Positions 6,692 to 12,829 of a stretch of 64,000 nt of DNA are shown one piece after another. The position numbers and the translations under genes were made by a program. The stretch lies in the NCBI GenBank assembly GCA_920105625.2, contig OV050030.1, forward strand, positions 67,361,807 through 67,425,806, written 5' to 3'. Within the stretch, counting starts at the first letter, position 1. Each line of letters starts with the position of its first letter. The stretch comes from Clusia tigrina (Eukaryota; Arthropoda; Insecta; Diptera; Clusiidae). Under the pieces are notes generated by a model that did no database searches, was not told where the DNA came from, and worked only from the letters and a program-made list of their open reading frames with translations.

Positions 6692-7004
6692 TGTGGGAAA
6701 GCAACCTGACGGAATGACGGACAAACAGGTGGCAACTACAGAACGTTTGACAAGAAGTGGACTAAATTACTAAAGTGACAACACTGTTTTGGTATGACAG
6801 AGACCGGACGTTGACACTTAACGAAAAAGAGCAGAAAAAGAGTCGTCGTGCGTCGCTCGAAAGTAAAAGATGTAAAATAGCTATTAAGCATATATTTCAT
6901 AAACTAATATTTTAATAAGTGTGAATATTTAAGAACAATTGAATTTTAATAAAACATTACTTTAAACTATTAAACAATTGGGTTTATTTGTTCGGAGTCC
7001 TACA
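6692..7004 (+). repeat. 5' LTR (313 bp) of SAP-Gag retrotransposon
   Basis: Starts tgtgggaaagc and ends gagtcctaca. An aataaa signal occurs in the ttttaataaaac stretch near 6947. No strong TATA box is visible. Same length as the 3' LTR. Confidence 0.95.
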
Positions 7005-7006
7005 AG

Positions 7007-7024
7007 TGGTGTCAGAAGTGGGAT
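7007..7024 (+). promoter_or_regulatory. Primer binding site, probably tRNA-Leu
   Basis: tggtgtcagaagtgggat begins 2 nt after the 5' LTR. It resembles the complement of eukaryotic tRNA-Leu 3' ends (tggtgtcaggagtgggat) with one mismatch. The tRNA assignment is from memory of tRNA-Leu, not a search. Confidence 0.75.
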
Positions 7025-11200: not shown

Positions 11201-12598
11201 GACTTCAATTATGAGATCGAGCACCGGAGCGGTACGAAGATGAAGCATGTTGATGCCTTGAGCAGGGTTGCATGTCTCATGTTGGAAGATTCCCTTAGTC
11301 ATCGCTTGAAACAGGCGCAGCTATCCGACGACTGGATTCGAGCAGTTCGCAAAGTCTTGGAACGAGATGAATACGACGATTTTTACATGAAACATGATGT
11401 ACTTCATAAGAATCCCGACAAGGAACTTATTGTTGTCCCATCGCTCATGGAGGAAGAGATTATTAAAATGGCACATCAGCAAGGACATTTTTCCACCAAG
11501 AAAACCCAAGATGTCGTAGAAAAATCATTTTATATTCCGCAGTTGAGTCTAAAGGTTGCTAAAATTGTCAAGAGCTGCGTACAATGCATTGTGGTCGATA
11601 GTAAGTCTGGGAAAAGGGAAGGTTTCTTAAATCCCATAAACAAAGAGGATCAGCCGCTGGGAACATTCCATGTCGATCATGTGGGACCGATGGAAACGAC
11701 TAACAAGTCGTATAACTACATTTTGGTGGTCGTTGACGCATTTTCAAAGTTTGTATGGTTGTACCCAACTAAGAATACTGGCGTCGAAGCTGTTGTTGAA
11801 AAACTGAGGAAGCAGGCAGCGATATTCGGCAACCCGAAACGGATAATATCGGACAGGGGTGCAGCGTTTACTTCCAATCTATTTAAAGATTATTGTGAAA
11901 GTGAAGGTATTCAACATCTACTCATAGCTACCGGGGTTCCACGCGGGAACGGACAAGTGGAGCGTATTCACAAGATTGTTGTACCCATGATATCGAAGCA
12001 TTGCAGTGAGAGTCCCGATAAATGGTATAAACACATTGAAAAGGTACAGCAGTACATCAACAGCACTCCACCTCGCAGTACTAAAGTGTCACCCTTCAGG
12101 ATAATGACAGGCTTAGATATGCGAATACCAGGGATACCAGATTTTCAAGAGCTTTTGAATGATGTTGCGATTGACGAACTTGACGGAGAACGTGAAAAGG
12201 TCAGAGAAGAGGCCCAAGAAAACATCTCTAGAATTCAACAGGAGAATCGCAGGACTTACAACGCAAATCGTAAAAAGGAGAAGATTTACAATGTGGACGA
12301 GCTCGTTGCCATCAAGCGAACACAGTTCGGTTCAGGGCTGAAGTTAAAGCCTAAATTCTTCGGACCCTACCGGGTAGCAAAAAAGATGGCACACGGAAGA
12401 TACGAAGTTGTTAAGATTGGTGATCACGAAGGCCCAGGCCGAACCACAACGGTCGCCGAATTTATGAAAAAATGGGAACTTTCATTCGAGCCGAATGAGA
12501 ATACAGGATGGCCGAATGTGGGAAAGCAACCTGACGGAATGACGGACAAACAGGTGGCAACTACAGAACGTTTGACAAGAAGTGGACTAAATTACTAA
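8252..12598 (+). CDS. Gag-Pol polyprotein with N-terminal SAP domain (intact, 1448 aa)
   Basis: One uninterrupted frame. Residues ~5-41 fit a SAP motif (LTVDKLKDELRTVGLSTTGR), a fold that binds AT-rich DNA. A retrotransposon Gag region follows (~90-230), then two CCHC knuckles starting at 264 (CFTCGDATHFARNC) and 284 (CFKCGQEGHRAAEC), aspartic protease DTGS (D346), reverse transcriptase with YMDD at 741-744, RNase H (TDAC, D890), and integrase with an H/C zinc region from H1075 and catalytic D1142, D1201, E1237 (35-residue spacing). A GPY-type module (FGPYRV ~1370) closes it. Gag and Pol are fused with no frameshift. The stop lies 82 nt inside the 3' LTR. The ATG chosen is the first in frame and sits just before the SAP motif. 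All key residues are present. Confidence 0.95.
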   Translation: MDSEQILRLTVDKLKDELRTVGLSTTGRKATLQDRLLEHFGLNVSEAEDSDYNDAASQRSLVVRAANVERSAFTLRDIEDSMTSFSGSGQPSLEQWLEIFEENAEAVCWSNLQKFIYAKQLLKGGAKIFVRSQSGINSWSSLKQALRKEFRTTFSSIEIHRLLRNRRKRQGEDFREYLYSLMEIGKPINLDDSSLIEYFIDGIPDAKSNKSNLYQAKTVEDLKEQIKVYEKLRTSKPQYSIESQAQPPSSNKVSPNSRDATKKCFTCGDATHFARNCPRKVIKCFKCGQEGHRAAECKAAGTFIKTEKSKVNVMNNESIEVKPEKKCGLIFKKLVLNGFNLLALIDTGSDLCLMRYDTLIMLELDVKLSEEKRRLVGIGNSELTTMGSFTMLIEIDDVWVNTTFHVTRERDISYAAVIGNDVLQQVDIIMTEDGAEFKKKAVQVKMEGQLGLNVAKDKKVVVLEAKRNAGVCADKTQETCDGANMHRAVTGESGEEYSRKPCGACACWNVVGEPGEEHSRESESQAAELLEGFRDLCLLAGLKENDVDLSHLDKMHANEVKSMVETYCPAQNISSPVEMKIILTDDIPVYERPRRMSFADRCTVDEQVAQWLEEGIIKPSTSEYASPIVLVSKKDGGKRLCCDYRRLNQKIVRDNFPMPLIDDVIERLQGANMFSTLDLENGFFHVPVEANSRKFTSFVTYNGQYEFQYVPFGISNSPAVFSRFIVAALRDLIQNGTVVVYMDDLIIPSKDEVEGVQKLKTVFKAAAANGLRIKWRKCQFLMTKVEFLGYVIEHGSIKPSDEKTKAIKNFPLPHDRKSMQRFLGLTSYFRRFVEGYAVMAKPLSDLLRKNVDFLLKDEQVVAFKQLKTALMNAPVLRLYDPKAVTEVHTDACMLGYWAVLLQKDVDDQQFHPIQFMSRKTRPEEEKYHSYELEVLAIIKALKKWRVYLMGIKFKIVTDCNAFTMTMSKRDVPLRVSRWAMFLQDFNYEIEHRSGTKMKHVDALSRVACLMLEDSLSHRLKQAQLSDDWIRAVRKVLERDEYDDFYMKHDVLHKNPDKELIVVPSLMEEEIIKMAHQQGHFSTKKTQDVVEKSFYIPQLSLKVAKIVKSCVQCIVVDSKSGKREGFLNPINKEDQPLGTFHVDHVGPMETTNKSYNYILVVVDAFSKFVWLYPTKNTGVEAVVEKLRKQAAIFGNPKRIISDRGAAFTSNLFKDYCESEGIQHLLIATGVPRGNGQVERIHKIVVPMISKHCSESPDKWYKHIEKVQQYINSTPPRSTKVSPFRIMTGLDMRIPGIPDFQELLNDVAIDELDGEREKVREEAQENISRIQQENRRTYNANRKKEKIYNVDELVAIKRTQFGSGLKLKPKFFGPYRVAKKMAHGRYEVVKIGDHEGPGRTTTVAEFMKKWELSFEPNENTGWPNVGKQPDGMTDKQVATTERLTRSGLNY

Positions 12599-12829
12599 AG
12601 TGAGAACACTGTTTTGGTATGACAGAGACCGGACGTTGACACTTAACGAAAAAGAGCAGAAAAAGAGTCGTCGTGCGTCGCTCGAAAGTAAAAGATGTAA
12701 AATAGCCATTAAGCATATATTTCATAAACTAATATTTTAATAAGTGTGAATATTTAAGAACAATTGAATTTTAATAAAACATTATTTTAAACTATTAAAC
12801 AATTGGGTTTATTTGTTCGGAGTCCTACA
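12517..12829 (+). repeat. 3' LTR (313 bp) of SAP-Gag retrotransposon
   Basis: Identical to 6692-7004 except for three substitutions by eye. The first 82 nt are coding (end of Gag-Pol). No obvious polypurine tract precedes it; the upstream bases read gagaatacaggatggccgaa. Confidence 0.95.

Follow-up and report, generated by a model that had tools for sequence, protein, structure and literature searches.

A retrotransposon of the fly Clusia tigrina, whose Gag begins with a SAP domain, lies within a (TA)n tract, and SAP domains have been described as binders of AT-rich scaffold DNA. The locus raises the question of whether the domain brought the element to this site or serves Gag in some other capacity. 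The preliminary description had proposed that SAP might tether Gag or the integration complex to AT-rich chromatin and also bias integration into (TA)n; these two proposals fare differently when the element, its relatives and its surroundings are considered together.

The element and its architecture

A 6,138-bp Ty3/gypsy element occupies positions 6692-12829 of the window, i.e., the whole 64,000-nucleotide stretch of DNA that was analyzed, as delimited by LTR comparison, an ORF list and a Pfam scan (Table 1). Its two LTRs mismatch at three sites (LTR positions 88, 191 and 269), a divergence of 0.0096, which at insect substitution rates of 1.6-1.1e-8 per site and year corresponds to an insertion age of about 0.3-0.44 million years. 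The primer binding site starts two bases 3' of the 5' LTR and is presumably primed by tRNA-Leu. The single ORF contains no internal stops, and its final 82 bp lie inside the 3' LTR.

Table 1. Features of the element and of the tract around it (window coordinates)
Feature	Position	Strand	Details
Left (TA)n flank, interrupted	6553..6691		
5' LTR	6692..7004	+	313 bp, TGTGGG...CCTACA
Primer binding site TGGTGTCAGAAGTGGGAT	7007..7024	+	sole exact match in window; 0.03 expected at <=3 mismatches
Gag-Pol ORF	8252..12598	+	1448 aa
SAP domain, Gag residues 8-40	8273..8371	+	PF02037, 42.1 bits
Capsid region, residues 73-235, limits set by the analysts	8468..8956	+	PF03732 and alignment of 116
Two CCHC zinc knuckles, residues 264-297	9041..9142	+	PF00098, motif location
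Protease region, limits set by the analysts	9239..9541	+	DTGSD at residue 346; D346 invariant in alignment of 116
Reverse transcriptase, residues 632-792	10145..10627	+	PF00078, E 5.2e-34
RNase H, residues 856-985	10817..11206	+	PF17919, PF17917
Integrase zinc-binding and core domains, residues 1062-1228	11435..11935	+	PF17921, PF00665
GPY motif, integrase C-terminal region, residues 1371-1373	12362..12370	+	columns nearly invariant among 116
Expected polypurine tract place	12497..12516	+	purines only 15/20
3' LTR	12517..12829	+	313 bp
Right (TA)n flank, interrupted mainly at 12992-13069	12830..13198		

The capsid match to PF03732 (residues 133-203) scores 21.3 bits, below the cut-off of 24.1, and all Pfam protease matches in Gag-Pol likewise fall under their own cut-offs. 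The catalytic and metal-binding positions are in place: the protease DTGSD at 346, the reverse transcriptase YMDD at 741, and the integrase residues H1075/H1079/C1109/C1112 and D1142/D1201/E1237 all occupy invariant or nearly invariant columns in an alignment of 116 sequences. The preliminary description was right in its anatomy: comparison re-found its young, intact element with a 313-bp LTR pair differing at three positions, the Gag-Pol of 1448 residues is uninterrupted and carries the catalytic residues claimed for it, and the (TA)n tract flanks the insertion on both sides.

The LTR pair, the primer binding site and the domain order PR-RT-RNase H-IN, by which Ty3/gypsy elements are recognized, are all present, as are the single Gag-Pol ORF and the integrase GPY/F motif of blastopia-like Metavirus elements. 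These last two features define the blastopia/mdg3/micropia subgroup of Metavirus in the available portion of PMC5408687, where SAP in Gag goes unmentioned for the subgroup; the element is placed there by these shared features rather than by Drosophila sequences. This fly retrotransposon is a young Ty3/gypsy element, structurally complete and with one ORF, of the blastopia-like kind within Metavirus.

The SAP module and its distribution in insects

The SAP motif that had been noticed by eye at the Gag start is a clear Pfam match, with PF02037 found at residues 8-40 at an E-value of 6.1e-11 and 42.1 bits, the curated cut-off being 23.9. A single-sequence search with residues 1-41 against chains of solved structure gave only weak matches, the best being E1B-AP5 (1zrj, E 0.0034), followed by the 'thyroid autoantigen' 1jjr, which we take to be Ku70 (E 0.0068 for the whole chain, with single stretches all non-significant), and SIZ1 (2rnn, E 0.036). 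These share the Pfam SAP domain with the element, but they are host proteins and not Gag.

The SAP core (L14, G27, K29, L32, R35 and L36) is conserved in 48-50 of 50 SAP copies drawn from 48 sequences, the element included; since the copies were chosen by a SAP profile, these counts tell which positions are fixed and not whether SAP is present. Mean pairwise identity, measured on proteins alone for the element and 12 close relatives, stands at 0.494 for SAP, 0.536 for the capsid, 0.474 for the zinc knuckles and 0.384 for the protease, with 0.63-0.68 for reverse transcriptase, RNase H and integrase; the linkers adjoining SAP and the knuckles reach 0.212 and 0.125. The constraint on SAP is nearly as strict as that on the capsid and far above that on the linkers.

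Relatives bearing the same module were recovered from several directions. A Gag query (residues 1-330) found 11 proteins, seven with a precomputed PF02037 annotation, and a direct scan of eight of the 11 added a Drosophila suzukii protein with SAP at 24.2 bits. A Pol query matched 1099 proteins, with PF02037 in 39 of 120 among the matches listed, and SAP-Gag pieces searched against short proteins gave 58 matches, 28 of them with PF02037. Those named include Bactrocera, Rhagoletis, Eurosta, Drosophila, Camponotus, Lasius, Exocentrus and Eumeta, which we take to be flies, ants, one beetle and one moth. The closest Gag-only protein, at 72% identity, is from Bactrocera tryoni, with others in Rhagoletis and Ceratitis. 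Two scans of viral contigs returned zero relatives of the element.

The alignment of 116 comprises the element, the 11 Gag-search proteins and 104 further ones, 11 short Pol-search proteins having been left out; it gathers the nearest relatives found and is not a sample of all 1099 Pol matches. Profile typing of its N-termini yielded 48 SAP, 40 DEK-type, six of a third type, eight other and 14 short or none. Nine of the DEK-type rows had served to build the profile, and 44 of the 48 SAP rows already bore the Pfam label; shuffled N-termini, as a control on the typing, reached a best E-value of 0.16. Two proteins (P0038 and P0087) carry two SAP copies in tandem. The third type was considered as a diverged SAP and set aside, as profile comparison gave a probability of only 6.5%. 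The same fate befell a Bactrocera dorsalis protein (P0006) as a SAP-bearing Pao element: its Pfam list combines SAP with a gag domain that we take to be Pao-type, but by eye it reads as a SAP-Gag fused to unrelated pieces and is probably a gene-model chimera.

The modules follow the phylogeny of Pol to a considerable degree. In a quick tree from reverse transcriptase to integrase (110 rows, six of the 116 having been dropped as incomplete), a 36-row group consisting of 34 SAP and two short rows has an SH-aLRT support of 98, and P0082, a Lasius niger protein annotated as blastopia polyprotein that itself lacks a Gag start, falls inside the SAP group. This tree needs nine changes for SAP and 17 for all labels, as against 53 in shuffles. 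A careful tree of reverse transcriptase and RNase H, for which 90 of the 94 module-bearing rows of named type were used, places 36 of 45 SAP rows in two well-supported groups (14 and 22), with the remainder scattered elsewhere, and needs four changes for SAP and six for all three labels, as against 34 in shuffles. Because the changes are so far below those in shuffles, the modules are mostly inherited, with a few switches; the trees do not give their order of appearance. Seven of the 14 short or absent N-termini make two clades of their own (five and two rows), and therefore related elements seem able to manage without a module; some of the other short rows may be truncated gene models. These patterns indicate that the SAP of this Gag is inherited within a large insect lineage and is not a private oddity.

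The DEK-type counterpart

The 40 DEK-type Gag starts present a parallel drawn from a host protein. A profile of nine such sequences matched Protein DEK (2jx3) at an E-value of 1.4e-15 over 95 profile positions and the DEK chains 8kcy and 9l1x at about 1e-14, the next best match being at 0.41, whereas Pfam finds in these nine N-termini only a weak SAP_new25, in eight of them. In a one-to-one comparison the plain SAP-Gag profile pairs with the SAP half of the DEK-type module at a probability of 87%. The likeness is to the nucleosome-binding pseudo-SAP/SAP domain of DEK; the element in the window differs in bearing a shorter, plain SAP in place of the DEK-type start.

In the available portion of PMC12263440, the SAP domain of DEK sits on the nucleosomal dyad and linker DNA, and nine contact residues to nucleosomal DNA could be taken from it for comparison. 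At four of the corresponding positions many of the 40 Gags have a basic residue (107 in 70%, 111 in 48%, 124 in 100% and 125 in 65%), while at five (116, 144, 153, 158 and 168) they seldom do (0-18%); non-contact positions are basic in 12% on average. DEK's 11 remaining lysines and arginines, which are absent from the contact list, have a mean of about 31%, compared with 35% for the contact positions; among them, K145 (90%) and R178 (83%) are often basic in the Gags. As other basic residues of DEK are basic about as often, the contacts show no special conservation, and nucleosome binding by DEK-type Gags is weakened as a firm claim.

The new point, as far as the compared proteins indicate, is a widespread SAP or DEK-type Gag start in insect Ty3 relatives. 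No description of either in retrotransposons was found by title or abstract start in open-licence PMC papers; the 'SAP motif' of PMC12789967 is that of PT/SAP budding.

Insertion site and candidate roles of the module

Inside (TA)n the target duplication is unreadable, but its length must be even, since a 5-bp one would read ATATA at one end and TATAT at the other, and a 4-bp TATA duplication is compatible with the site. Tracts of (TA)n with n of at least 8 make up 1,216 of the 57,862 bp outside the element (2.1%); the single insertion in one of them is weak evidence for a site preference. Of the TATA sites in the window outside the element, 584 of 972 lie in such tracts, as do 567 of 637 TATATA sites. 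The tract has also received other guests. At 13199-14867 it is interrupted by a Tc1 element, whose inverted repeats are imperfect and which is flanked by TA, and a Helitron adjoins its left side (Helitron_like_N at 2946-3605, PIF1 at 3556-5430), with a likely end ...GCTAG/T at 6548-6553, presumably the Helitron terminus, that closes at 6552. With three kinds of element meeting at one TA tract, it looks like a general sink for TA-seeking insertions.

The proposal that SAP steers the element into (TA)n or into AT-rich matrix-attachment DNA can draw on the AT-rich scaffold binding noted above and on an insertion into a class of tract covering so little of the window, although that insertion is one case spotted after the fact. 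We know of no gypsy-group family of Drosophila melanogaster that carries SAP. Yet these families have TATA or ATAT target motifs in the available part of PMC3276498, in which the gypsy, Idefix and 412 clades target TATA or ATAT (412 weakly), with mdg3 and micropia represented by five insertions and one, too few for a motif. Because the review PMC5408687, in the portion available, has integration in the blastopia subgroup as nonspecific, a reading of the TATA site by the integrase is borrowed from other gypsy clades, and such nonspecificity at the level of bases leaves room for another cause. Against steering by SAP, a TATA core by itself would lead into a long TA tract at most of the TATA sites counted above, and the Tc1 element and likely Helitron end share the very same tract. 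The bias toward (TA)n that the preliminary description ascribed to SAP is thus unsupported, and we consider such steering quite improbable.

We favor, at roughly even odds (about 0.5), a reading in which SAP would give Gag, or the capsid together with its cDNA, a hold on host DNA or chromatin by which it docks or stays in the nucleus, the TATA core being set by the integrase or chance and not by SAP. Gag would bind through SAP, the bound Gag would help the capsid and its cDNA to dock or be retained, and integrase would then join the cDNA at a TA-rich core picked within (TA)n by its own preference or by chance; in other members of the lineage a DEK-like module would take the same position in Gag. 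Binding to DNA or chromatin in the cell, docking and a nuclear role are what we infer here, and it is in this indirect manner, from how well the module is conserved and from its DEK-type counterpart in relatives, that the tethering of Gag once proposed gains support. The module might instead supplement the nucleocapsid and act on nucleic acid within the particle, whether in RNA packaging, in cDNA handling or in strand transfer: SAP domains of several proteins bind nucleic acid, E1B-AP5, Ku70 and SIZ1 are sequence relatives of this one, and Gag otherwise has just two small zinc knuckles. These knuckles are, however, present and conserved next to SAP, so the module is no replacement for them, and the DEK-type counterpart suggests chromatin, although its contact residues are not specially kept; a role in the particle is possible, but we lean against it. 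It is rather unlikely that the module serves mainly for protein interaction, nuclear import or mimicry of host factors such as the SUMO or Polycomb machinery, for the conserved positions include the G-x-K loop of SAP, even if the weak matches of known structure include the SUMO ligase SIZ1 (E 0.036) and DEK stimulates Polycomb repressive complex 2 (PMC12263440, available portion). That SAP is a functionless passenger is very improbable indeed: relatives without it do exist (the 14 short or none and eight other rows of the 116), but its identity far exceeds that of the linkers and it has been kept across large clades.

A parallel might be struck between the favored reading, chromatin attachment through SAP, and other systems with a chromatin-binding module. 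Chromoviruses have a chromatin-reading chromodomain added to the Ty3/gypsy integrase, and differ in that their module is at the integrase end while that of the present element is at the Gag start. The tethers of foamy virus Gag and MLV p12 are not known to be SAP folds. In the available portions of the respective papers, foamy virus Gag tethers to chromatin via a chromatin-binding sequence (PMC6282019) and MLV p12 is a Gag-borne chromatin tether (PMC6021111); both would resemble SAP-Gag, by analogy, in Gag-borne attachment to host chromatin, but they are retroviral and bind the nucleosome and histones.

More tentatively, the insect Ty3 lineage may possess exchangeable host-type SAP or DEK-like Gag modules, acquired repeatedly, that tether capsid and cDNA to particular chromatin, in which case the module type would predict the genomic landing place of an element. 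Chromoviruses and the yeast elements apart, little is known of the routes by which LTR retrotransposons gain access to chromatin. A Gag-borne SAP or DEK-type module in several insect orders would offer a testable answer to how such elements reach it, with SAP, tandem SAP, DEK-type and module-less Gags as natural variants for comparison. In the available text of PMC7826183, genes with SAP motifs are among the most copy-number-variable between bumblebee species, a variation that, we infer, may bear on SAP retrotransposons.

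Leader and polypurine region of the SAP-bearing element

Within the young Ty3/gypsy element whose Gag begins with a SAP domain, the leader carries 17 ATGs ahead of the Gag start as well as a 61-bp direct repeat (8023-8148), and a weak polypurine tract sits within the coding sequence, which extends into the 3' LTR.

Among the relatives of its Gag-Pol in the alignment, P0022, P0025, P0041, P0059, P0065 and P0112 display a third conserved module at the Gag N-terminus (RKEDLxxLxxELG...), counted apart from SAP.

Features of the main element and other repeats in the window
Feature	Position	Strand	Description
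Leader of main element	7005-8251		Long (1,247 bp); upstream of Gag start
Weak polypurine tract of main element	12497-12516		Purines 15/20
Helitron	2946-6552		Helitron_like_N 2946-3605; PIF1 helicase 3556-5430
Tc1-like element	13199-14867		Transposase ORF 13571-14593
Another Ty3/gypsy element	24861-37158		Two copies; colinear, diverged
Non-LTR retrotransposon	38893-43981	(-)	Endonuclease, RT, RNase H
Repeat	37650-38590; 1-412		Two places

Elements adjoining the (TA)n tract

The TA repeat on both sides of the main element is likely adjoined by the 3' end of the Helitron, a copy with a broken reading frame; we take GCTAG/T at 6552 to be this end by the Helitron end motif. The same tract surrounds the Tc1-like element, which is flanked by TA at either side and has imperfect inverted repeats of ~225 bp.

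Other repeats in the window

The two copies of the other Ty3/gypsy element share a piecewise identity of 73-89%, with a third piece lying inverted at 16656-18063. ORF one of the non-LTR retrotransposon contains DUF4780. The repeat found in two places, which resembles a mariner element, shows 92% identity between 38184-38587 and 1-412. An inverted repeat at 44600-44900, near-perfect as judged by eye, is centred on a 94 bp (TA)n tract.
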